The notes below the pieces were generated by a model, which searched no databases, was not told the DNA's origin, and saw only the letters and a list, made by a program, of their open reading frames with translations. This document shows, in pieces, positions 7,800-44,243 of a stretch of DNA of 64,000 bases. The DNA lies in contig JAHEGY010000005.1 of assembly GCA_024644875.1 (NCBI GenBank), forward strand, positions 1 through 64,000. The letters run 5' to 3'. Position 1 is the stretch's first letter; the number at the start of each line of letters is the position of its first letter. The translations under genes were made by a program, and so were the position numbers. The stretch is from Cyclobacteriaceae bacterium (GTDB taxonomy: Bacteria; Bacteroidota; Bacteroidia; Cytophagales; Cyclobacteriaceae).

Positions 7800-10055
7800 T
7801 TAGAACCGGGTGAAATTAAATTCTGCTCTTCTGTTCATGCGGATTTCTTCACTATCCATATTGGCTATGATCGGCATCTTTTCCCCAAATCCGAGAACTT
7901 TTATCCGGGACCTCTCAACACCCTGGTCAATCATGTACTGTCGTACTGATAATGCTCTTCTTTTTGATAAATCTATATTATAATAATAATCACCTATATA
8001 ATCCGTAAATCCACCAATCTCCAGGTTTATATCCTGATGTTTAAGCAGGAAAGCAGCGATGGCATCCAGGATCGGATAAGATGGGGGCAGAACAACATCA
8101 GAATTGAAATTGAATATTACCAGGTTTTCCAAGCTCGATCCTCCGGAAGAATAAGACCTTGTTTCCGGAGCAGGATCTGAATACTCCTGAACATTGCTTT
8201 GAAATTCCTCAGCTGTAACCTCTTCAAAATCCTCCTCGGGTATTTCTTCATATTCCTCTTCAGCCACTGCTGTTGCTTCAATAACTTGATCTATTTCGCC
8301 CAGATCTTCCTGAGGCTCCGCTTCCACATCAATTTCTTCTGTTTCATAAGATTCAATTCCTTCGCCTATCGCCATTACATCCGCCACTAGTTCCGGTTCG
8401 GATTCCGCCAGATCCCTGGACAGGAAAATATTAAGATCGAATGTATAGGGTTTGTTCTTATTTTCTAATTCGAATGGCATCTCTACCGGTTCATAGCCTT
8501 TCTTTTCCCCAACAAGTTTGTATTTGTAACCTGACCTGAGAAATATCTGGTAATTACCTGACATTTCATTAGAAAATGTTGTACCATATATTTCATTTGA
8601 CGGTTCAACAAGAAGTGATAATAAGGCATTTACTGGCGTAGCGGATTGTTCATCCATAACCTTACCTTTCACAACCACAAGCGGGTTGGCATCCATAAAC
8701 TGAGGCCTGTCTACTCTTACTATTCGCATCATCCCATCCTGCGTTCCCTGGGCCAGATAAGCATAGGAATCTTTTTCATCGAAATAAAAGTAATGGTCAT
8801 TGTAGGGTGTATTAATATCTTCACCAATATTTTCGGGTTCTGCCCAGTTCTGCCATGAATCATCCAACCTTTTAACCCTGAAAATATCGCTGCCTCCCAA
8901 TCCGGGATAGCCTTTTGAAGTAAAATACAATGCATTCTCTTCCATAGAAAAGAAAGGTGCATATTCATCCTCTTGCGTATTCAGGCTTCCTATATTTACC
9001 GGCGTACCCCATTTGTTTTCCCCCTCTTTTAAGGACACATAAAGATCTGTTCCACCCAGTGTACCTTTTAATTCACTTGATAGGATCAATACATTGCCAT
9101 TATCTGTAATCGTATAATCCGCATCAACAGGGATTTCACCCGCACCTTTGATTTTCTGAACTTCCGCTGATGTCCATGATCCGTTTTCTTTGGTGACAGC
9201 TGACAGGTTCGCTCTTACCTTATTGGCACTTCCACTTACATTACCGACCATCAAACGTGGATTGCTCCCCTCGTTGTAGATAGAATTCGAAGTATTAAAT
9301 CCAATATTATTGATTTTCTCACCCAGCCTTACAGGATCGGAGTATCTGCCGTTATCAAAAGTTGAAAACCATACATCACCGGGATCATTTATACCTCCCA
9401 CATTTCCTTCGCTGAATCCCCTTGTGAAAAACAACGTTCTTTCATCTTCAGAATAGACCGGACGAATATCTGATTCTTCGCCTGATGCATTAAGATCAAT
9501 ATTTCTTTTTGACAATCTTGGATTCAGGCGATATGCGAATCCTTCCCTGAACCGAATGGGGACTACCGAAGTTGATACCCCGATTGCATCTATAGAATTA
9601 GCACCCGGAACCATGCTGCCGTCCAGTACAACTTTAACGGCTGTGATATTGAAATCATAGGTGGGAAGGAATACATTTAATATGCGGTTATTAACTTCAA
9701 TTGGGCCGGGGATAAAAGATCCTACAAGATGCGCATCCTTGTTTTCATCATACACATAGATCATTTCTATTGCTCCAGGATTGCTGGATTCCACAATGGC
9801 TATCTGACGAATCTTCATCGGACTGCCAAATCCAACCACCATGTATTCGGGTGAATCAGGGGAACTGGCCATCCAGGCCATCGGATCCTTTCCTCCAAAT
9901 TTAAAGGCATCGGGAGGACCGGTAACCTGGGCAGCAGAAAAATCCCTGCCGGAAAATTGCGAGGAATACTCTATTACTTCGCTGGCCCATATAACTTCTT
10001 GTGCATAACTATAACATGTAATAAGTGAAAACACTAAAACCAAATACGTTTTCAT
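7800..10055 (-). CDS. OmpA-family envelope protein with discoidin-like, PD40 propeller and CRD domains
   Basis: 751 residues. Signal peptide 1-18. An N-terminal discoidin/F5-8C-like beta-sandwich (about 20-170) contains WASEVIEYSSQFS and VKVVLDGS. A WD40-like PD40 propeller (about 190-440) has repeats such as RPVYSEDERTLFFTRGF and YAPFFSMEENALYFTSKGY. A carboxypeptidase-regulatory-like domain (about 455-540), an acidic Glu-rich linker and an OmpA C-domain follow. The latter has GFTDYIGD and NIDLSKRRALSVRQYM, so the peptidoglycan-binding Asp and Arg are present but the usual GHTD His is Phe. The PD40-CRD-OmpA order recalls type IX secretion PorE, without its TPR part. It is paralogous to the next gene upstream. 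Confidence 0.85.
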   Translation of the reverse strand: MKTYLVLVFSLITCYSYAQEVIWASEVIEYSSQFSGRDFSAAQVTGPPDAFKFGGKDPMAWMASSPDSPEYMVVGFGSPMKIRQIAIVESSNPGAIEMIYVYDENKDAHLVGSFIPGPIEVNNRILNVFLPTYDFNITAVKVVLDGSMVPGANSIDAIGVSTSVVPIRFREGFAYRLNPRLSKRNIDLNASGEESDIRPVYSEDERTLFFTRGFSEGNVGGINDPGDVWFSTFDNGRYSDPVRLGEKINNIGFNTSNSIYNEGSNPRLMVGNVSGSANKVRANLSAVTKENGSWTSAEVQKIKGAGEIPVDADYTITDNGNVLILSSELKGTLGGTDLYVSLKEGENKWGTPVNIGSLNTQEDEYAPFFSMEENALYFTSKGYPGLGGSDIFRVKRLDDSWQNWAEPENIGEDINTPYNDHYFYFDEKDSYAYLAQGTQDGMMRIVRVDRPQFMDANPLVVVKGKVMDEQSATPVNALLSLLVEPSNEIYGTTFSNEMSGNYQIFLRSGYKYKLVGEKKGYEPVEMPFELENKNKPYTFDLNIFLSRDLAESEPELVADVMAIGEGIESYETEEIDVEAEPQEDLGEIDQVIEATAVAEEEYEEIPEEDFEEVTAEEFQSNVQEYSDPAPETRSYSSGGSSLENLVIFNFNSDVVLPPSYPILDAIAAFLLKHQDINLEIGGFTDYIGDYYYNIDLSKRRALSVRQYMIDQGVERSRIKVLGFGEKMPIIANMDSEEIRMNRRAEFNFTRF

Positions 10056-10375
10056 AGGTGATCAGATCGAAGGTTTAGCCAAGATAAAAAAATTAATCGT
10101 ATTATATCAAATACAAATAGAACTTTATTTCAGCCTGTATTTTAGGAATTTAGCTGTTTTAGGGCTGTTTTTTTGAAAATTTCTTAATTTATTAATTTAA
10201 GTGGAATTGGTTAAATTTCTTTGTATCAATCAATTAAAAAAATTGTTGCAGATTATGCTGATTGGAAGCCGATTGTAAGCTCAAGCCTGAAAAAAAATAT
10301 CTGAAATGAGCGTAAAAGGGTAAATCCAAACAAATAACCCATTTCAATGCTGATCACCAGGTTCTTTGTATTTCC
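10056..10375. other. 320-nt A+T-rich spacer between the two OmpA paralogs
   Basis: No coding signal was found on either strand. Apart from the candidate promoter next to the 751-residue gene, the spacer is A+T-rich with poly-A/T runs and no strong hairpin. It separates the downstream paralog from the two upstream genes, so the downstream gene probably has its own promoter. Confidence 0.4.
10079..10111 (-). promoter_or_regulatory. Candidate -33/-7 promoter for the 751-residue OmpA-family gene
   Basis: On the minus strand TTTG (10108-10111) is followed 21 nt later by TATCTTGG (10079-10086), which differs from TAnnTTTG at one fixed position. It lies 23 nt before the ATG at 10055. Confidence 0.35.
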
Positions 10376-12463
10376 CTATCTGGTAAAATTATATTCAACC
10401 CTACGGTTCATCTTAAGATCTTTTTCATCATCCACGCCATATACAGCAGTCATTCTTTCCCCGAATCCCAGAACAGTGATCCGGTTTGATTTTATCCCTT
10501 TGTCGGTCATATACTTTTTAACGGCAGATGCCCTTCTGAGCGCCAGTTCATTATTGTATTTTTCATCACCAATATGGTCGGTAAAACCTGCTAATTCAAT
10601 ATCCATATCTGGATTATTTTCCATGAATACCACCAGTAAGTCTATAACGGGGTATGACTCTTCGGTAATCTTATCGGAGTTGAAGTCAAAAGTAATATCA
10701 TAAGCATCGCCTGAGGTCCTATCCGTATCGGCCACTGGTCCGGGTCTGACTTCAGGTTGTTCAGGCGGCTCATCGGTGGCGGCAACCACCTCATCAGGAA
10801 CGAGTACACCCAGTCCCATTTCTATATCAAGGTTATACGTATACTCAGTATTCCTGTTTTCAAGAGCCAGGGATGTTTCAAAAACCTCAAATCCTTCTTT
10901 TTCACAGAACAAAACGAATTCATTCCCGGAGGGTACCATGATTTCGTAGGCACCAGTGGTCTGGTCTGAAATCGTCATTCCATAGGTCCTTTCCTCCGGT
11001 AATATCAATACTGAAATTACCGAGTTTACAGGCCTGTCAGTTTCCCTGTTAACAACATTCCCCTGTAACGTGACCATAGGGGTTTTCTCCAAAAATACCG
11101 GTCTTTCAACCCTGATTATGCCAAAAGTACTGTCTATATTCATCCTTGTAAAAAATGCGTATTCATCAGCATCGTCAAAGAAAAAATAATTCTCATCTGT
11201 ATCAGTATTGATGTCTCCGCCAAGATTTTCAGGCGTGGTCCAATTGGTCCAGGAATCACCTATCCTTGTAATCCGGAATATATCACTTCCCCCAAAACCA
11301 GGATATCCATTTGAAGCAAAATACAGAGATCGCTCACTTTCAGAATAATAAGGTGAATATTCATCCAGTGTGGTATTTATATCTCCCCCCATGTTCACAG
11401 GTTCTGACCAGCGGTTCCCATTTAACTGTCTGATCATGTAAAGATCCCTTTCACCTTCAGTATCGTATCGTAATGTGGAGAGGATGATAATAGAATCACC
11501 CGGAACGATGGTATAGTCGGCATCGATAGAGGCAATTCGACTGTTTTGAATTTTTAGTTCCTTGACATCACCCCATTCCCCATCAGTCCTGGTGGTCATT
11601 ATCACATTTTTAGCTGCAGTACTGGTTTTACCGGAAATATTGCCCAATAGCAGTGTAAGGCTACCCTCGGCATACATCACATCATTAGTACTATTATATC
11701 CAATATCATTGATCCCTTCTCCCAGTGAAACTCCTTCCTGAAATCGGCCACTGGTCTCATCGTACGTTGACTGCCAGATATCACCCGGATCATCAACTCC
11801 GCCAATGTTTTGCGGGCTATATGCCCTTGTGAAATACATTGTATTCAGGGATTTTACATATACCGGACGGGATTCCGACACATCTAATCCGGCTCCGAGA
11901 GATAAAAACTGGTTTTCAAGACCCGGATTTCGCCGAAAAGCGATTTCTCTTTCCGCCGTTATAGGCACAGTTGATCCGGAGATCCCAATAGCATCGATGC
12001 CATTATACCCTGGCACCTGGCTTCCATCAAGTACAATTTTAAGGGCGCTGACCGCATATTCTGTCTCCGAAAGAAATATGTTCAGCAATCTCCCTTCAAC
12101 ATTCAATTCCCTGGGAATAAAAGTATTCAGAAGATATTCCCTGTCGTTTTCATCATATAGAAATACCTGGTATAAAGCACCCGGATTAAAAGATTCTCCT
12201 ATGGCAATCTGCCGGACGTGCATGGGTTGCTCAAAGCCCACTTTTACGAAGGACATTCTGTTGGGCCTGGAGGGCAGCCATGCATTGGGATTATCCCCAT
12301 AGTCAGGAAGCACATCAGGTTTGCCAAGAACCTGTGTTGCAGAATATTGATATTCCGATAATTGGGTAGAAAAATCCAATACACTTGAGGCCCACTGGAC
12401 TTCCTGGGCTATGGCAATATTGGCCATCAGCATCAATGCAGATGCCAAGAAAATTCGCTTCAT
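10376..12463 (-). CDS. OmpA-family envelope protein, paralog with PD40 and CRD domains
   Basis: 695 residues with the same layout as its downstream neighbour. Signal peptide (MKRIFLASALMLMANIAIAQ); discoidin-like N-domain (WASSVLDFSTQLSEYQYSA, LKIVLDGSQVPGYNGIDAIG); PD40 propeller (RPVYVKSLNTMYFTRAY, YSPYYSESERSLYFASNGY); CRD around residues 470-545. The C-terminal OmpA domain has GFTDHIGDEKYNNELALRRA. The shared blocks, including GSQVPGYNGIDAIG against GSMVPGANSIDAIG, show a tandem duplication. The acidic linker is shorter than in the paralog. It probably sits in the outer membrane or periplasm and contacts peptidoglycan. It lies 58 nt downstream of the small OmpA gene. Confidence 0.85.
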   Translation of the reverse strand: MKRIFLASALMLMANIAIAQEVQWASSVLDFSTQLSEYQYSATQVLGKPDVLPDYGDNPNAWLPSRPNRMSFVKVGFEQPMHVRQIAIGESFNPGALYQVFLYDENDREYLLNTFIPRELNVEGRLLNIFLSETEYAVSALKIVLDGSQVPGYNGIDAIGISGSTVPITAEREIAFRRNPGLENQFLSLGAGLDVSESRPVYVKSLNTMYFTRAYSPQNIGGVDDPGDIWQSTYDETSGRFQEGVSLGEGINDIGYNSTNDVMYAEGSLTLLLGNISGKTSTAAKNVIMTTRTDGEWGDVKELKIQNSRIASIDADYTIVPGDSIIILSTLRYDTEGERDLYMIRQLNGNRWSEPVNMGGDINTTLDEYSPYYSESERSLYFASNGYPGFGGSDIFRITRIGDSWTNWTTPENLGGDINTDTDENYFFFDDADEYAFFTRMNIDSTFGIIRVERPVFLEKTPMVTLQGNVVNRETDRPVNSVISVLILPEERTYGMTISDQTTGAYEIMVPSGNEFVLFCEKEGFEVFETSLALENRNTEYTYNLDIEMGLGVLVPDEVVAATDEPPEQPEVRPGPVADTDRTSGDAYDITFDFNSDKITEESYPVIDLLVVFMENNPDMDIELAGFTDHIGDEKYNNELALRRASAVKKYMTDKGIKSNRITVLGFGERMTAVYGVDDEKDLKMNRRVEYNFTR

Positions 12464-34735: not shown

Positions 34736-34842
34736 TTAAGATATATAATCCCAGTTTTTTTCAAAGACCCGAAGATATTCATTCAGCAAATTGATCAAAT
34801 ATCAGAATAGTGATATCTTTATTATCCATATTAATTCATATT

Positions 34843-35451
34843 ATGAAAGCGACATTTCTACTTTTTTTCTTTTGCATTTTTTTATTGACACCAGGCTGTA
34901 ATAATGAACGTAAAGAAACCAATACAAATGACGAGGAGTTAGAAGAAATGGCTGTTGCCAAGGGGGATATGATCAGCCAGATCGCCCAGATGGCCCTGGC
35001 ATCTAAATTAAAGGAAGTCGTACAGGAAGAAGGCATAGCCGAGGCGCTAAAATTTTGTAACGTTAACGCTTATCCTATAGTCGATTCATTAGAAGAAGTA
35101 TACAATATTCAAGTTAAAAGGGCGAGTTCACGTACCAGAAATCCAGGGGACACCCCAAATAAAATGGAAGGAGAAATAATTGAAAAATACTCCCGGGATA
35201 TTGCAAAAGGTTTTACACCAGAGGTTAAGATCATAATGGATGATGACATGGCTCATTATTTCAAACCCATTATCCTCTCGGCAGAATTATGCCTGAAATG
35301 TCATGGACAGGTAGGTACGGATCTCCTGGACGAAAATTATAAGATCATCAAGGAACTCTATCCGGATGATAATGCTACCGGTCATAATTTAGGTGATCTG
35401 AGAGGAATCTGGAGCATTTCATTTAAAAAAGATGCCCTTTCAAAAAATTAG
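34843..35451 (+). CDS. DUF3365 (Tll0287-like) c-type heme lipoprotein
   Basis: 202 residues from the ATG at 34843. Lipoprotein signal (KATFLLFFFCIFLLTPGC, lipobox Cys19), then a helical sensor-like DUF3365 domain with KFCNVNAYPIVDSL and RASSRTRNPGDTPN. The c-heme motif CLKCHG (Cys150, Cys153, His154) follows late in the chain. Such domains are exported heme-binding redox or sensor modules. A GTG 11 codons upstream (34810) gives no better signal. It precedes the psr operon by 262 nt on the same strand and could donate electrons or sense redox state there (inference). Confidence 0.88.
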   Translation: MKATFLLFFFCIFLLTPGCNNERKETNTNDEELEEMAVAKGDMISQIAQMALASKLKEVVQEEGIAEALKFCNVNAYPIVDSLEEVYNIQVKRASSRTRNPGDTPNKMEGEIIEKYSRDIAKGFTPEVKIIMDDDMAHYFKPIILSAELCLKCHGQVGTDLLDENYKIIKELYPDDNATGHNLGDLRGIWSISFKKDALSKN

Positions 35452-35713: not shown

Positions 35714-37954
35714 ATGAGATCCAATCGAAGGGACTTTATAAAAATATCATCGATGGGTATCGGCGGGGCTGCAGTAGCTGCTCCGGCTTTTAACTGGGCT
35801 GAAGGAGCTATAAAAGCCGACAATAAGAAACCGGGTGCGGAGTACAAACGGACATCTACTTATTGTGAAATCTGTTTCTGGAAATGTGCCGGATGGGTAT
35901 ATTCAAACGACGAAGGACATATCTGGAAAATAGAAGGCAATGCCGACGATCCTCATTGTAATGGGAGACTTTGCCCCAGGGGGACAGGCGGTGTAGGAAT
36001 GTACAACGATACTGACCGTCTCAAGACACCACTGATCAGGAAAACGAAAAATGGCAAACAGGTTTTTGAAGAGGCCACATGGGATGAAGCCCTTGATGTG
36101 GTTGCTGAAAACCTGAAAAAAATCGCTAACGAACATGGTCCCGAGTGTGTAGCATTGTTTACTCATGGCTCAGGAGGTAAATTTTTTGGCGACTTGCTGA
36201 AAGCGACAGGCTCAACAAATATAACGGCACCATCTTTTGCACAATGTCGCGGGCCAAGAGAAACAGCATTCCTTGCTACCTATGGAGAAATTATTGCATC
36301 GCCGGAATTTACAGATATCAGAGACACCAAATGCCTGGTGCTGATCGGCTCTCACCTGGGAGAGAACATGCATAACGGCCAGGTTCAGGAAATGTCTGAA
36401 GCCATAGATAAAGGAGCTACTATTATTACAGTTGATCCAAGATATTCCACTGCAGCCAGCAAGTCCAAACACTGGCTTCCCATTAAACCTGCTACCGATC
36501 TGGCCTTGTTGCTGGCCTGGATAAACGTTCTGATAACTGAAGAATGGTACGATAAAGATTATGTGGAAAGATATACATATGGATTTGATCAGTTGAAAAA
36601 CCATGTTCAGTCATTTACTCCTGAGTGGGCTTATGGCATCACCACCCTGGCCCCTGAGATGATCAGAGAAACTGCAAAGGAAATGGCCAATGCCTCTCCG
36701 GCAGTTATCGTACACCCGGGAAGGCATGTCACATGGTACGGGGATGATACACAACGATTGAGAGCTGTTGCCATATTAAATGCCCTGCTCGGTTCATGGG
36801 GCAGAAAAGGTGGCTTTTATTCACCTGAAAAAAAATCCCTCCCATCCTACCCGCATCCTGAATTCCCAAAACCAAAGCGGACCTGGCGGGATGCACATCC
36901 CGGGAAGTATAACCTGGCGCTGGAGGTTGTTTCCAATGACATTTGTGATTCCACGATCCCTAGTCCTGACAGGGCATGTAATTTTAAAGGATGGATCGTT
37001 AATGGTACCAACCTGATCTCAACCCTGCCTGACCTGAACAATACGCTTGAGGCAATTCAAAACCTGGAATTCATGGTGGTTATTGACACTATGCCTATGG
37101 AGATCACAGGCTATGCGGATGTTGTTTTGCCTGAATGTACTTATCTTGAAAGATATGATTATTGCCGGACAGATCAGCACAGGGAACCTAACATTGCCCT
37201 GAGAATGCCGGCTGTTGAGCCAAAATATAACACCAAGCCCAGTTGGTGGATGGTCAAGAAACTGGCCAGTAAAATGGAACTTGATGATTTCTTCCCATGG
37301 AAAGATGTTGAGGAACTGCTGGACTGGCAGTTAAACCAAGTTGGATCTTCATTGGAAGAGATGAAACGCCTTGGGGTGAAAAAATTCCCAAGGGAATACG
37401 ATGACCTGTATTTTTTCAAAAACCAGGAGGTCGAATTCAATACGAACACCGGAAAAATTGAGCTATATTCTACTGACCTGGCAGCGGAAGGATTTGATCC
37501 TATGCCAGTATATACCAAACATAAGGAACCACCTCCAGGTTTTTATCGCCTGAATTATGGCAGGTCCCCGGCACATACTTTCAGCCGTACTGCGAACAAT
37601 CCAAATCTCACAGATCTGGTAGATGAAAACGTTTTATGGGTTAATCCACAGGTAGCTAAAGACTGGAGTCTTAAAAACGGACAACCCATCTGGCTCGAAA
37701 ACCAGGATGGCGTTAAATCAAAATTCCCGATAAAAGTGAGAATTACAGAACGGATCCGGTTTGACTCAGTATATATGGTACACGGATTCGGTCATTCTAA
37801 CAAAAAGCTATCCAGGGCCTATGGTAAGGGAGTCAGTGATTCAGAGTTGATCACCAAAGTGCTCCTTGATCCGGTCATGGGTGGAACAGGCATGCGTGGC
37901 AATTTTGTTACTTTCAAATTAGAGAATCCCAATGAAGAGGAGGTGATGTCATGA
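35714..37954 (+). CDS. psrA: PsrA/PhsA-type molybdopterin polysulfide/thiosulfate reductase, catalytic subunit
   Basis: 746 residues. A Tat signal (RSNRRDFIKISSMGIGGAAV) precedes a [4Fe-4S] site formed by Cys51, Cys54, Cys58 and Cys87 (YCEICFWKC and GRLCPRG). The molybdopterin domains follow, with a cysteine at the usual Mo-ligand place (SFAQCRGPRETAF, Cys178), LIGSHLGENMHNG, VDPRYSTAASKSKHWLPIKP and a C-terminal dinucleotide-binding domain (NYGRSPAHTFSRTANNPNL). It is exported folded and reduces an oxidised sulfur compound. Polysulfide and thiosulfate cannot be separated by sequence; related Mo enzymes such as tetrathionate or arsenate reductases are less likely given the neighbours. The psrB start overlaps its stop as ATGA. 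Confidence 0.9.
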   Translation: MRSNRRDFIKISSMGIGGAAVAAPAFNWAEGAIKADNKKPGAEYKRTSTYCEICFWKCAGWVYSNDEGHIWKIEGNADDPHCNGRLCPRGTGGVGMYNDTDRLKTPLIRKTKNGKQVFEEATWDEALDVVAENLKKIANEHGPECVALFTHGSGGKFFGDLLKATGSTNITAPSFAQCRGPRETAFLATYGEIIASPEFTDIRDTKCLVLIGSHLGENMHNGQVQEMSEAIDKGATIITVDPRYSTAASKSKHWLPIKPATDLALLLAWINVLITEEWYDKDYVERYTYGFDQLKNHVQSFTPEWAYGITTLAPEMIRETAKEMANASPAVIVHPGRHVTWYGDDTQRLRAVAILNALLGSWGRKGGFYSPEKKSLPSYPHPEFPKPKRTWRDAHPGKYNLALEVVSNDICDSTIPSPDRACNFKGWIVNGTNLISTLPDLNNTLEAIQNLEFMVVIDTMPMEITGYADVVLPECTYLERYDYCRTDQHREPNIALRMPAVEPKYNTKPSWWMVKKLASKMELDDFFPWKDVEELLDWQLNQVGSSLEEMKRLGVKKFPREYDDLYFFKNQEVEFNTNTGKIELYSTDLAAEGFDPMPVYTKHKEPPPGFYRLNYGRSPAHTFSRTANNPNLTDLVDENVLWVNPQVAKDWSLKNGQPIWLENQDGVKSKFPIKVRITERIRFDSVYMVHGFGHSNKKLSRAYGKGVSDSELITKVLLDPVMGGTGMRGNFVTFKLENPNEEEVMS

Positions 37955-38484
37955 GATACGCAATGGCAATAGATACTAAAAAATGTGTGGGCTGTGCCGA
38001 CTGTGTCGTTGCATGCCAGACAGAAAACAATGTCCCCATAGGACATTGCAGGGACTGGATCGTGGAGAACACTGCCGGAACTTATCCACAACTTGAACTG
38101 GAAATCCGCTCGGAGCGATGCAATCATTGCAAGAACTCCCCATGTGTACGATGTTGTCCAACTGGAGCAAGTCATTACTCGGAAGGCGGTATTGTCCTGG
38201 TAACCGGTGATGACTGCATAGGATGCGGGGCCTGTATAGCTTCCTGTCCTTATGATGCCCGGTATCCTCATCCTGAAGGATATGTGGACAAATGTACATT
38301 TTGCGATCACCGGGTTAAAAACGGTCAGAAACCTGCATGTGTGGATGTTTGCCCGACACATTGCATGTATTTTGGCGATCTGGATGATCCAAACAGCGAA
38401 GTATCCAATATTCTTAAAAAGAGAAAATATAAAAGACTTATACCGGAAGCCGGTACAGATCCTCAATTGTATTTTTTAATATAA
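37951..38484 (+). CDS. psrB: PsrB-type four-cluster ferredoxin subunit
   Basis: 177 residues with four [4Fe-4S] motifs. CVGCADCVVACQTEN is at the start; CNHCKNSPCVRCCPTGA, CIGCGACIASCPYDA and CTFCDHR...ACVDVCPTHC follow. This is the DMSO-reductase/NrfC/PsrB electron-transfer subunit. It passes electrons from the membrane subunit to PsrA; it has no own signal and would be exported with PsrA. Translationally coupled to psrA by a 4-bp overlap; psrC starts 12 nt later. Confidence 0.95.
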   Translation: MRYAMAIDTKKCVGCADCVVACQTENNVPIGHCRDWIVENTAGTYPQLELEIRSERCNHCKNSPCVRCCPTGASHYSEGGIVLVTGDDCIGCGACIASCPYDARYPHPEGYVDKCTFCDHRVKNGQKPACVDVCPTHCMYFGDLDDPNSEVSNILKKRKYKRLIPEAGTDPQLYFLI

Positions 38485-38496
38485 ATCGGAAGCATA

Positions 38497-39438
38497 ATGA
38501 TGGAAGAAATTATCACAAGTGGCAGGATGAACTATAAGATAGACCCCCAGTTGCATATCTGGGGATGGGAGATCCCGCTATATTTATTCCTCGGGGGCCT
38601 CGCTGCCGGTATTCTGTATTTCGCCTCTTATTATTACCTGAGGGGGAAGGAAAAAGATATGCCTACAGCTATCAAGCTGGCTCCGATGATAACGCCAATA
38701 TTGCTTGTTATCGGTTTAGTTGCCTTGTTACTGGACCTCAATCATAAACCCTATTTCTGGAAACTGTATACGACTATAAAACTCGAAAGTCCGATGTCAT
38801 GGGGTGCCTGGACACTGATGGTTGTCACACCGGTTTCAATTATCTGGTCTGCATCTTATCTCCGTGAGATCTTTCCAAACTGGGACTGGAAATTTAAATG
38901 GTTATATGCCCTGGAATCCTATTTTATCAGAAACAGAAAGTCATTGGCTTGGATCATGATCTTCTTTTCGGTAATTCTGGGTATTTACACTGGCATTCTC
39001 TTATCGGCCTTTAATGCCAGACCATTATGGAATACTTCGATTCTGGGACCATTATTCCTGGTATCCGGCCTGTCGGCAGGCGCAGCAACCATAATGATGA
39101 TGTCAAAAGATAAGCTTGAAAGGAATATGTTCAGCAGAATGGACCTGGTATTGATCGGGATCGAGATTTTCCTTGTCATCCATATGTTTATGGGTTTTCT
39201 AGCCAGCTCGCAGGTTCAGATCGAGGCTGCTCAACTTTTTCTTGGAGGCCCTTATACGCTCCCATTCTGGACCATTGCAGTATTCACTGGCATGATCCTT
39301 CCGGGAATTCTGGAATTCCTGGAAATACGTGGCCGGCATATACCGGCTTATATCCCAGGATTACTAATCCTGATAGGCAATATATCATTAAGATTTATTA
39401 TAGTTTATGCCGGACAGGCAAGCAGATATTTATATTAA
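38497..39438 (+). CDS. psrC: NrfD/PsrC-type membrane quinol-oxidising subunit
   Basis: 313 residues with about eight transmembrane helices. WGWEIPLYLFLGGLAAGILY is the NrfD/PsrC signature, followed by SPMSWGAWTLMVVTP, YTGILLSAFNARPLWN and LFLVSGLSAGAATIMMM. It should oxidise menaquinol and deliver electrons to PsrB. An NrfD-type rather than cytochrome-b-type anchor is why the complex is called Psr rather than Phs. Spacing to the next gene is 1 nt. Confidence 0.93.
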   Translation: MMEEIITSGRMNYKIDPQLHIWGWEIPLYLFLGGLAAGILYFASYYYLRGKEKDMPTAIKLAPMITPILLVIGLVALLLDLNHKPYFWKLYTTIKLESPMSWGAWTLMVVTPVSIIWSASYLREIFPNWDWKFKWLYALESYFIRNRKSLAWIMIFFSVILGIYTGILLSAFNARPLWNTSILGPLFLVSGLSAGAATIMMMSKDKLERNMFSRMDLVLIGIEIFLVIHMFMGFLASSQVQIEAAQLFLGGPYTLPFWTIAVFTGMILPGILEFLEIRGRHIPAYIPGLLILIGNISLRFIIVYAGQASRYLY

Positions 39439-39439
39439 T

Positions 39440-39961
39440 ATGAAGGAGAATTTAAAACAACCTAAACCGTATATGAATCCCTATTTGGCAGGGATCGTGT
39501 TGGGTTTTGTGCTTCTGGCTTCTTTTTACCTTACTGGAAGAGGGCTTGGAGCAAGTGGTGCCACACGCAGCGTGGTCATCGGTGCTGTAACTAGCGTGAC
39601 ACCGGAACATGCAGAAAACTCAGGTTATTTCAGTAAATACCTGGGAGATAATCAGATGAAGACCTGGCTGGTGCTTGAAATTGCAGGTGTTATAATAGGC
39701 GGATTTCTGTCCGGAGCATGGGCAGGAAGGTTAAAAATCCGCGTTGAGCATTCTCCGGGGATCTCAAAACGCAAAAGGATTTACATGGCAACCCTTGGTG
39801 GCCTTTTGTTTGGCTTTGGATCACAATTGGGAAGGGGCTGTACAAGCGGAGCCGCATTAACAGGCATGTCGGTAATGTCACTGGCAGGATTTGTTACCAT
39901 GATGGCGATTTTCGGAACCGCCTTTGCACTGGCTTATTTTTTTAGAAAAAACTGGATATAA
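39440..39961 (+). CDS. YeeE/YedE (TsuA-like) sulfur-compound transporter, N-half
   Basis: 173 residues from the ATG at 39440 (MKENLKQPKPYMNPYLAGIV). Hydrophobic helices, GFGSQLGRGCTSGAALTGMS with a single cysteine (Cys134), then GTAFALAYFFRK. This is half of the YeeE/YedE fold; full-length TsuA imports thiosulfate through conserved Cys residues. An earlier in-frame ATG (39407) lies inside psrC and is rejected. The second half is encoded 2 nt downstream, so the transporter is split in two chains. Confidence 0.88.
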   Translation: MKENLKQPKPYMNPYLAGIVLGFVLLASFYLTGRGLGASGATRSVVIGAVTSVTPEHAENSGYFSKYLGDNQMKTWLVLEIAGVIIGGFLSGAWAGRLKIRVEHSPGISKRKRIYMATLGGLLFGFGSQLGRGCTSGAALTGMSVMSLAGFVTMMAIFGTAFALAYFFRKNWI

Positions 39962-39963
39962 TT

Positions 39964-40566
39964 ATGGGACCTTTAGTACCACTACAAAATATTTCAAATG
40001 AATTGAACCTGCTGATCGCATTTGTGATCGGATTAGGATTTGGCATTGCCCTGGAGCAGGCAGGTTTTTCATCCAGTCGTAAACTTGCAGGGATGTTTTA
40101 CGGATATGACACGACCGTATTGAAAGTTTTCTTTACCGCCGCTATTACAGCGATGCTGGGTCTGATATTCCTGAACTTTGTCGGACTGATCGATCTGGAT
40201 ATTGTATATGTAAACGAATATTATGTGTATTCCGCAATAATCGGTGGTATCATTATGGGAGCTGGTTTCATAATCGGTGGATTCTGCCCGGGCACCAGCT
40301 TTACGGCCGCTGCGATAGGCAAAATAGATGCCATGTGGTTTATCCTGGGGAGTATGATCGGGATCTTTATCTTCGGGGAAACATTTGTTTTCTGGAAAGA
40401 CCTGTATATGAGTGGATATAAAGGAGCTATCAAGATCTCTGATGTTCTTGGAATTCGTGATGGGTATTTTGCTTTGCTCCTGATCCTTGTGGCCACACTT
40501 ATGTTCTGGGTAGCAGAAATGGCTGAGAAGAAATTTAAACGTGAAGATATTACTAAAGAAATATAA
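39964..40566 (+). CDS. YeeE/YedE (TsuA-like) sulfur-compound transporter, C-half
   Basis: 200 residues, polytopic. LGFGIALEQAGFSSSRKLAG, a conserved start of this half, is followed by GAGFIIGGFCPGTSFTAAAI with its only cysteine (Cys108), then SMIGIFIFGETF. It pairs with the preceding gene; each half carries one membrane cysteine in a G-C-x-(S/G)-type loop. Predicted to move thiosulfate or another sulfur species across the inner membrane, feeding or clearing the Psr reaction (inference). Confidence 0.88.
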   Translation: MGPLVPLQNISNELNLLIAFVIGLGFGIALEQAGFSSSRKLAGMFYGYDTTVLKVFFTAAITAMLGLIFLNFVGLIDLDIVYVNEYYVYSAIIGGIIMGAGFIIGGFCPGTSFTAAAIGKIDAMWFILGSMIGIFIFGETFVFWKDLYMSGYKGAIKISDVLGIRDGYFALLLILVATLMFWVAEMAEKKFKREDITKEI

Positions 40567-40576
40567 ATAGCAGACT

Positions 40577-41191
40577 ATGAATACCCGAGTTATATTAAGT
40601 ATCATTTTAATTTCATTTGGAAGCATAGCAGCTATCCTTCCAAAACAGAAAACTTCATCGGTTCAATTGAATGCAGATGAACTTTTACGGGAGATCAGGC
40701 TGGAGACCAACCTGGTATCTACAGATGAACTGGCTGATCTTTTAATAAACCTGGATCCCGGGATTATGCTGATCGATGTACGGGATTCTATAGAATACAG
40801 TAAATATCATCTCCCGGGAGCAATCAATATCCCCTTGAAGCAATTGCTGGATGAAAAATGGATGCCCTATATTGATCAGATATCCAAAAAAAACATTTTT
40901 TATTCAAACGGCACCACACTTTCCAGCGAAGCATGGATACTCACCAGACAGTTGGGATATCAAAATAATTATGTTCTATACGGAGGATTAAACAGGTGGT
41001 TCGAAACCATTATCAAACCCAGTCACCCGGGGTCTATGGCGACATCTGTTGAGATCGAATGGTTCAACAAAAGAAAAGCGGCAAGTATGTATTTTACGGG
41101 CAGCAGCAATGCAACGGATTTGAGCAGTGCTCCGGCACTTCCCCCGGTACCCAGAAAAAAGAAGAAAAGAGTAGCAGGAGGATGCAGTTAA
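40577..41191 (+). CDS. Rhodanese-fold protein lacking the catalytic Cys, with penultimate C-terminal Cys
   Basis: 204 residues. N-terminal membrane anchor (VILSIILISFGSIAAIL), helical linker, rhodanese domain about 46-150 with IMLIDVRDSIEYSKYHLPGA (CDC25-like first motif) and LGYQNNYVLYGGLNRWF. The catalytic loop, normally C-R-x-G-x-R, reads FYSNGTTLSSEAW, with Ser110 in place of Cys. A Pro/Lys-rich tail (PPVPRKKKKRVAGGCS) ends with Cys203, the sole cysteine of the protein and its penultimate residue. A sulfur-carrying swinging tail is conceivable; classical sulfurtransferase activity is not expected. Confidence 0.85.
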   Translation: MNTRVILSIILISFGSIAAILPKQKTSSVQLNADELLREIRLETNLVSTDELADLLINLDPGIMLIDVRDSIEYSKYHLPGAINIPLKQLLDEKWMPYIDQISKKNIFYSNGTTLSSEAWILTRQLGYQNNYVLYGGLNRWFETIIKPSHPGSMATSVEIEWFNKRKAASMYFTGSSNATDLSSAPALPPVPRKKKKRVAGGCS

Positions 41192-41202
41192 AAATTGATA
41201 TT

Positions 41203-41730
41203 ATGAAACATTTGAATTTATTAATACTAGGAGGCATTGTAATCATCTTAAGCATCATATTCGGTATAGCTACTATAAAAGTAACGGGAAAATACCTGTT
41301 TAAACGAAGTGCCTCTGAGATGTTGACCAGGGTAAATACGCAATCTCAACTTCTGAATATCTCGAGGGCAAAGGAATTGGTACAGAGCGATACTGTGGTA
41401 TTTATCGATATAAGAACACCCAAGGAGTTTGTAGGATATCATATTGAGAATGCACGGAACATCCCTTTTGACCGCTTACTCGATGATAATTACATTGATA
41501 TTCTGGAGAATGATCAGATGAAGATCCTGTACGGGACCAATTCAGTAGGATCAAATGCTGCATGGATGGTATTGACCCAGTATGGATATGATAAACTTTA
41601 TGTGCTGGATGGAGGTGTGCAGGACTGGATAACTCAGGTAGAAACCAGTGATATTTTTAAAGGTGCCTACAAGAGTGATGAAGCTCCTTTATACAACTAC
41701 AGTGAAGTTATGGATCCTGAGTCGGATTAA
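41203..41730 (+). CDS. Membrane-anchored rhodanese-fold protein without any cysteine
   Basis: 175 residues from the ATG at 41203 (MKHLNLLILGGIVIILSIIF, an N-terminal helix). The earlier in-frame ATG at 41059 lies within the preceding gene and gives a Cys-containing nonsense extension. The rhodanese domain has VVFIDIRTPKEFVGYHIENA and YGYDKLYVLDGGVQDW. The active loop reads ILYGTNSVGSNAAW, Gly111 at the Cys position, and the chain has no cysteine at all. Paralogous to the gene 11 nt upstream. Probably a binding partner or scaffold, not a sulfurtransferase. Confidence 0.85.
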   Translation: MKHLNLLILGGIVIILSIIFGIATIKVTGKYLFKRSASEMLTRVNTQSQLLNISRAKELVQSDTVVFIDIRTPKEFVGYHIENARNIPFDRLLDDNYIDILENDQMKILYGTNSVGSNAAWMVLTQYGYDKLYVLDGGVQDWITQVETSDIFKGAYKSDEAPLYNYSEVMDPESD

Positions 41731-43643: not shown

Positions 43644-43673
43644 TTGGGAAGACCCGGGAATAATGCAGAAATA

Positions 43674-44243
43674 ATGGGTGTAAGTGGAATTATATTATCT
43701 GGAGGTAAAAGTACCCGGATGGGCCGGGATAAGGGATTGATCAAATTGAATGGCAAGCCCATGATCCAGCACGTTATCGACCACATTGAACCAATATGCG
43801 ATCAGCTCCTGATAAGCGCCAATGATAAATCCTATAAAGATTTTGGTTTTCCTGTTTATCATGATGAAATAGATGAGATCGGACCAGCTGGCGGAATACT
43901 TTCCTGTTTCAAGCATTCAAAGCATGAAAAGAACATCATTATCTCCTGTGATCTGCCTTTTGCTTCAACACAATTTATCCGGAAGTTACTTGACCTGTCA
44001 GGGGATTATGAAATTACCCTTCCAATGTCCGGCACACATTATCAACCATTATGCGCGGTTTATTCCAGGCAGGTATACCCGGTTTTCGAAAAAACCGTAA
44101 ACAAAGGGATCTTTTCTTTAAAATCCATTATCAAATCGTTCCGGATCCAGGTTATCAAGCCAGAGGATATCCAGGGATACGACCTGTCCAGAGAATTAAG
44201 GAATATAAATTCCCCGGATGATCTTAAAAAAATAAGGCAATAG
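43674..44243 (+). CDS. mobA: Molybdenum cofactor guanylyltransferase
   Basis: 189 residues from the ATG at 43674. MGVSGIILSGGKSTRMGRDK is the nucleotidyltransferase signature, ISCDLPFASTQFI the metal-binding motif, and LPMSGTHYQPLCAVYSR the C-terminal part. It converts Mo-molybdopterin to the bis-guanine dinucleotide cofactor needed by PsrA, which gives the location 6 kb away functional sense. A TTG start at 43644 is possible but gives an extension without homology. Confidence 0.9.
   Translation: MGVSGIILSGGKSTRMGRDKGLIKLNGKPMIQHVIDHIEPICDQLLISANDKSYKDFGFPVYHDEIDEIGPAGGILSCFKHSKHEKNIIISCDLPFASTQFIRKLLDLSGDYEITLPMSGTHYQPLCAVYSRQVYPVFEKTVNKGIFSLKSIIKSFRIQVIKPEDIQGYDLSRELRNINSPDDLKKIRQ

Follow-up and report, generated by a model that had tools for sequence, protein, structure and literature searches.

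A rhodanese-like protein with a terminal cysteine beside a split YeeE transporter in Bacteroidota is probably an unrecognised sulfur-carrying arm

What might two rhodanese-like proteins without a catalytic cysteine contribute to an operon that encodes a molybdoenzyme and a split sulfur transporter? This question is raised by the window, the whole stretch of 64,000 nucleotides from a Cyclobacteriaceae bacterium that was analysed here. The genes for these two proteins, here referred to as P1 and P2, close a run at positions 35714-41730 that lies entirely on the forward strand. Ahead of them come genes for a molybdoenzyme, for a 4Fe-4S and an NrfD-type subunit, and for two YeeE/YedE proteins of half size. 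The first gene (35714-37954) codes for a PhsA/PsrA-like molybdopterin subunit (Pfam PF00384 and PF01568) with a twin-arginine-type (Tat) leader, RRDF, at its N-terminus; its top NCBIfam match is the thiosulfate reductase PhsA, with 467 bits below the cut-off of 694. It is followed by a PsrB/NrfC-like 4Fe-4S electron-transfer subunit (37951-38484; PF13247), whose best NCBIfam match, NrfC, also stays below cut-off, and by an NrfD/PsrC-like quinone-interacting membrane subunit (38497-39438; PF03916, 156.6 bits). YeeE1 (39407-39961) corresponds to the C-terminal half of the YeeE/YedE profile PF04143 (Sulf_transp; positions 176-309) and YeeE2 (39964-40566) to the other half (positions 10-160), with scores of 74.8 and 58.4 bits at a cut-off of 27. 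P1 (40577-41191) and P2 (41203-41730) complete the run. Just 5' of the molybdoenzyme gene lies a gene for a Tll0287-like protein (PF11845) with a CLKCH motif (34810-35451), which was found in three loci of an initial comparison. A MobA-like molybdenum-cofactor guanylyltransferase is encoded after the operon (43644-44243); relatives of it were encountered in ten loci of that comparison, in most cases close to the PsrABC-type operon.

A preliminary description of this DNA had reported the motifs of the rhodanese fold in both proteins and a catalytic cysteine in neither, and both statements hold. P1 (204 amino acids) contains VRD and GGLNRW, P2 (175 amino acids) contains GGVQDW, and both are membrane-anchored and match the Rhodanese family PF00581 (54.5 and 60.6 bits, respectively; cut-off 22.2). 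In an alignment with a live rhodanese of the same genome (loop IYCRSGNRS), the position of the catalytic Cys is taken by Ser in P1 (FYSNGTTLS) and by Gly in P2 (ILYGTNSVG). P2 is free of cysteine and has no tail. The only Cys of P1 is the penultimate residue 203 (codon at 41183-41185), which belongs to the C-terminal sequence KKKKRVAGGCS. The start of P2 was placed at the ATG at 41203, because a longer frame from 41059 overlaps P1 and the homologs align from 41203. The AlphaFold model of P1, built from eight sequences, consists of an N-terminal helix, which would anchor the protein in the membrane, a rhodanese domain with pLDDT above 90, an extra helix at residues 157-173, and a basic arm at residues 177-204 (41105-41188) that is predicted to be disordered (pLDDT below 50 at residues 177-186 and 192-204). 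Foldseek matched this model to solved rhodanese-like structures (E 4e-7).

Sequence comparison indicates that the P1/P2 pair is a lineage-specific tandem duplication. Tandem copies occur in several Cytophagales and Bacteroidales loci, and usually both copies are tailed (L046, L069, L070, L042). The counterpart of P2 in the sister genome (L040) is tail-less too, and the counterpart in another member of the same family (G398) has kept the tail. Since the tail is gone in both genomes of the genus that were seen, the window and L040, P2 is a derived tail-less paralogue and not a required half of the system.

The tail of P1 could be a peculiarity of one protein or a conserved trait. In a first survey with P1 as query, relatives were detected in 27 of 395 Bacteroidota genomes, and nearly all of them possess a basic tail with a GGC or EGC end; a scan of genome contigs with one protein returned just three close relatives. 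As the tail itself could bias a search based on P1, YeeE1 (39407-39958) was used as a second bait. This survey reached 64 of the 395 genomes, which represent 53 genera and 20 families. Together with seven loci from other searches, the 66 loci from this survey gave 73 YeeE1 loci that were read, and 72 of them contain an adjoining ORF with Cys as the last or second-last residue. At the 73rd locus (L136, genome G294) the rhodanese gene is frameshifted, owing to either an assembly error or a young pseudogene, and the downstream frame keeps the tail KKKKREGC. A matching arrangement is located on a plasmid of Gemmatirosa kalamazoonensis (Gemmatimonadota), where Lys is replaced by Arg in the tail end LRRRGC; among plasmids, the complete gene set was found only in this organism. 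In an alignment of 82 relatives the terminal Cys is present in all 80 tailed proteins. No other residue of the family is conserved so well; the Asp (97.6%) and the Arg (96%) of the D-x-R motif rank below it. No other Cys occurs within the C-terminal 240 residues examined in 58 of these 80 proteins. The residue preceding the terminal Cys is Gly in 77 and the tail is net positive in 78 of the 80, and the GG motif lies 51-83 residues ahead of the Cys.

A terminal Cys was seen in none of approximately 270 proteins from ten unambiguous neighbour-gene families of the same loci, and none of 45 ORFs neighbouring ordinary YedE1E2 pairs at 14 loci of the same class ends in this way (these pairs score only E 1e-6 to 1e-4). 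Hence, the conservation in 80 of 80 tailed relatives is not a matter of chance. The same 14 ordinary loci rule out that a tailed rhodanese is the partner of any YedE. The strict motif KKK[K/R]xGC-stop has 15 matches in the 395 genomes, namely 12 members of the family, one family remnant (G047), and two short chance frames. A general tail signal was ruled out, as the strict-motif matches are nearly confined to this family, and in the genome of the window P1 is the sole real protein with a basic tail, GGC or EGC, and a stop. At the level of sequence, the tail motif thus is specific to the tailed rhodanese family.

These patterns also bear on the possibility that the basic GGC tail is a C-terminal processing or sorting signal, which would be cut or modified as in thiocarboxylated -GG carriers or in anchors. 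The extra C-terminal residues of -GG carrier proteins are trimmed, and the GGC and GGCS ends bear a superficial resemblance to them. In the tailed rhodaneses, however, the Cys is invariant and the Gly two positions before it is not, being replaced by Glu or Met in 23 of the 80 proteins. Moreover, no hydrophobic stretch precedes the Cys, and neither the window's own genome nor the strict-motif matches in the 395 genomes include a second real protein with such a tail. A processing signal therefore is a very improbable explanation.

Loss of the catalytic Cys extends across the family. The catalytic column of the 82 relatives contains Ser in 33, Ala in 24, Gly in 20, Asp and Tyr in one each, and Cys in only three, so that 79 of 82 are non-Cys. 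Two of the three exceptions (L132 and L133) belong to one genus, one with the loop LLYCEDN and the other with LLYCENN, and retain the tail Cys alongside; the third is the second copy of L069. None of them recreates a loop of the CRxGxR type. The preliminary description had pointed to homologs near psrABC and YeeE as the place to look, and it is there that the non-Cys loop coincides with the tail Cys, which recurs at 73 of 73 YeeE1 loci if the frameshifted one is included. It had also considered simple degenerate copies, that is, sulfurtransferase remnants with no special role. The lost catalytic Cys would agree with this, as would the lost tail of P2 and its faster divergence (only 45% identity to the sister genome L040, compared to 68% for P1), and P2 alone could be degenerating. 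For P1, however, the idea fails: tail Cys and dead loop have been kept together over 20 families in 64 sampled genomes, which makes mere degeneration barely credible.

The unit that remains constant among these loci is YeeE1-YeeE2-rhodanese, often in fused form: in most octaheme-type loci the rhodanese-like domain is fused to YeeE2. The pore cysteines of the transporter (Cys145 in YeeE1 and Cys108 in YeeE2) are each kept in 73 of 73. The preliminary description had treated P1 and P2 as a paired system without a name; no named system was found indeed, but the tail loss of P2 is specific to its genus and the unit is a different one. The enzyme encoded in front of this unit is exchangeable. At 36 loci it is a cytochrome of the octaheme tetrathionate-reductase family (TIGR04315; 597.7 bits, cut-off 375), accompanied by a thiosulfate-reductase-like cytochrome b; PsrABC takes this place at 31 loci (L045 counted), and a tandem rhodanese of 3-mercaptopyruvate/thiosulfate sulfurtransferase type at seven (L138 and Gemmatirosa counted). 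The commonest partner in the survey thus is not the Psr-type membrane reductase of the earlier notion but the octaheme cytochrome. Six changes among the three enzyme types were counted on the YeeE1 tree, with a minimum of two, and the enzyme therefore was swapped repeatedly, with the tail Cys retained throughout. Sox genes did not form a recurrent family among the clustered loci.

Several other genes accompany these operons. A regulator of the MerR type, whose C-terminal part is rich in Cys and which may be a sulfane-sulfur sensor, is encoded before PsrABC-type and octaheme-type operons at 28 loci (upstream of PsrA in L047) and was not seen in the window; in some octaheme loci a MarR-type regulator takes its place. 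A multihaem cytochrome of approximately 630 amino acids with 12 CXXCH motifs adjoins PsrABC-type operons in ten loci (L045, L070, L047, and seven others). Two loci, L041 and L045, encode tailed domains without an adjoining YeeE, and a hand-over to YeeE is thus not obligatory at these loci. In L041, which contains neither YeeE nor PsrABC, a lipoprotein-like tandem rhodanese with a loop Cys (9368-10423) is encoded directly downstream of two tailed domains.

Because a single Cys at the tail end is kept phylum-wide beside a split sulfur transporter, we propose that the tailed rhodanese probably is an unrecognised sulfur-carrying arm. A carrier tail on a dead docking domain had already been suggested in the preliminary description; the conservation of tail and loop sequences lends support to the carrier tail, and the docking function of the domain would follow from the mechanism outlined below. 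Precedents exist for the individual steps. Import of zero-valent sulfur by split YedE1E2 depends on the Cys of both halves (PMC10812762), intermediates are carried by SoxY on a swinging-arm Cys (PMC5336275), and a hand-over from SoxY to the pore of SoxT has been deemed conceivable (PMC11582611).

The side of the membrane is decisive for the role of such an arm. Topology was assessed with a crude hydropathy method by counting Lys and Arg on either side of the hydrophobic segment that most closely precedes the domain. The counts are higher before the helix in 45 proteins, higher after it in 10, and tied in 17, which favours a periplasmic location of the rhodanese domain in most members, both standalone and fused; the count for P1 itself is ambiguous (none before and two after the helix). 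A cytoplasmic tailed domain would instead be an exit acceptor of the split YeeE, comparable to YeeD/TsuB, the "fourth cysteine" of full-length YeeE. YeeD, a known partner of YeeE, docks at the cytoplasmic face and holds thiosulfate on one Cys (PMC11073785), and the domain fusions to YeeE2 parallel YeeE-YeeD fusions. Furthermore, a search for the TusA family (PF01206) in the window's own, 97%-complete genome returned no match, with a control that responded in 11 of 14 cases, so that some other acceptor would be needed. However, the positive-inside counts place the domain outside in most members, and five YeeE2 segments plus one ahead of the fused domain are consistent with a periplasmic domain as well. 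The co-encoded enzymes also are periplasmic, as seen from the Tat leader of PsrA and the c-type octaheme cytochrome, and at L041 and L045 there is no adjoining YeeE from which sulfur could be accepted. An exit acceptor thus is unlikely.

Besides carrying sulfur, the terminal Cys could have a role in dimerisation, thiol redox, or with a metal. If it were a thiol-redox or structural residue, it would form mixed or inter-subunit disulfides, with tandem copies or with YeeE. A lone Cys on a flexible tail would be suited to this, tandem copies exist in several lineages with some of them two-tailed, and for SoxYZ, cross-linking via the arm Cys has been seen in vitro (PMC5336275). However, P2 and its L040 orthologue are tail-less while P1 keeps its tail, and at many loci the domain is encoded only once; a required disulfide between copies is therefore unlikely. 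The strictly terminal Cys with its preceding Gly is more reminiscent of carrier arms than of structural cysteines, and the neighbouring genes encode sulfur enzymes and not thioredoxins. On balance, we consider a disulfide function improbable.

The carrier reading itself builds on the dead loop, the invariant tail Cys, the modelled disorder, the gene partnership, the gene fusion, and the invariant YeeE cysteines. With somewhat better than even confidence, P1 can be described as a membrane-tethered, probably periplasmic sulfur carrier, in which Cys203 on a swinging arm relays sulfur to YeeE and the dead domain serves for docking; we infer that it lies in the periplasm, which sulfur cargo it bears, which way the sulfur moves, and that it is passed on. 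In this scheme the rhodanese domain, no longer chemically active, would be a docking module and the basic disordered tail of 25-30 residues the swinging arm. Cys203 would take up a sulfur unit, either a persulfide or an S-thiosulfonate, that is the product or the substrate of a periplasmic sulfur enzyme; this enzyme would be the PsrABC-type complex here and the octaheme cytochrome or the tandem (live) rhodanese in the relatives. The arm might then pass the sulfur to the split channel of YeeE1 and YeeE2 at its mouth, or receive it from there, so that sulfur might either enter the cell to be used or leave it to be reduced, and the two invariant YeeE cysteines would carry the relay on into the cytoplasm. 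P1 would thus be the entry-side counterpart of the exit-side YeeD, and P2 a duplicated docking partner, armless in this genus. A broader generalisation, to which we give slightly less than an even chance, is a phylum-wide class of extracytoplasmic carriers that combine a non-catalytic rhodanese with an arm Cys, are dedicated to split YeeE, and work with exchangeable sulfur redox enzymes; sulfur would then be fed in protein-bound form and not as a free ion. How sulfane sulfur gets across the inner membrane has yet to be settled even for the most thoroughly studied sulfur oxidizers, and both the species transported and the way in which it reaches a YeeE-type pore are described as unresolved (PMC11582611). 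A carrier that is fused or gene-linked to the pore and has one invariant Cys would make the membrane crossing of sulfane sulfur directly testable. If true, this would also assign a sulfur role to operons that 64 of the 395 Bacteroidota genomes in the sample contain next to genes for molybdoenzymes and octaheme cytochromes.

How does this unit compare with known systems? A literature search that covered few subscription journals found no paper that names a unit of YeeE1, YeeE2, and a tailed rhodanese. Likewise, no NCBIfam model scores above its cut-off over the rhodanese-like part of P1, of an EGC-type relative, or of a fused relative. The best NCBIfam match of P1 is TsoB (NF045694), a rhodanese/DsbD-like selenoprotein, which aligns over the rhodanese part only (34.9 bits vs. 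805); the Sec residues (PMC13188914) and the DsbD-like part of TsoB are absent from P1. The active rhodaneses GlpE, PspE, and YgaP have the fold and the signature PF00581 in common with P1 and P2, but in nearly all tailed relatives the loop Cys is replaced by Ser, Ala, or Gly and the conserved Cys has its place in the C-terminal tail. The preliminary description had drawn a parallel to DsrC, and DsrC/TusE indeed shares with P1 a flexible C-terminal tail whose second-last residue is Cys. Beyond this likeness DsrC is a poor analogue: it is cytoplasmic and carries two Cys on its arm, the other one some ten residues ahead of the penultimate Cys, whereas P1 lacks a second arm Cys, has an unrelated fold (no DsrC match in the Pfam scan), and likely resides on the opposite side of the membrane, so that SoxY is the closer comparison. 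The transporter resembles split YedE1E2 (PmpAB), which also consists of two half-size YeeE proteins with one essential Cys each and imports zero-valent sulfur (PMC10812762), but YeeE1 and YeeE2 form a separate subfamily in which a tailed rhodanese is the invariant partner. YeeD/TsuB, too, is a small and sometimes fused partner that extends the YeeE relay by one conserved Cys (PMC11073785); it has a TusA fold with a CPxP Cys and is cytoplasmic, whereas P1 matches Rhodanese only. The likeness to SoxY(Z) goes furthest, as this periplasmic protein bears a single Cys next to Gly on a flexible C-terminal arm, carries sulfane or thiosulfonate cargo, and has been proposed to feed the YeeE-type SoxT (PMC5336275, PMC11582611). 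A SoxY search of the window's own genome gave no match, with the controls likewise silent, and the Pfam scan of P1 yielded PF00581 only and not PF13501. In contrast to the GGCGG of SoxY, the tail of the P1 family is basic and ends in GGC(S), EGC, or MGC with Cys in the last or second-last position; its fold is that of rhodanese, and the tailed rhodaneses are membrane-anchored or fused to YeeE. By analogy, P1 thus is SoxY-like in its proposed action, but not a member of the SoxY family.
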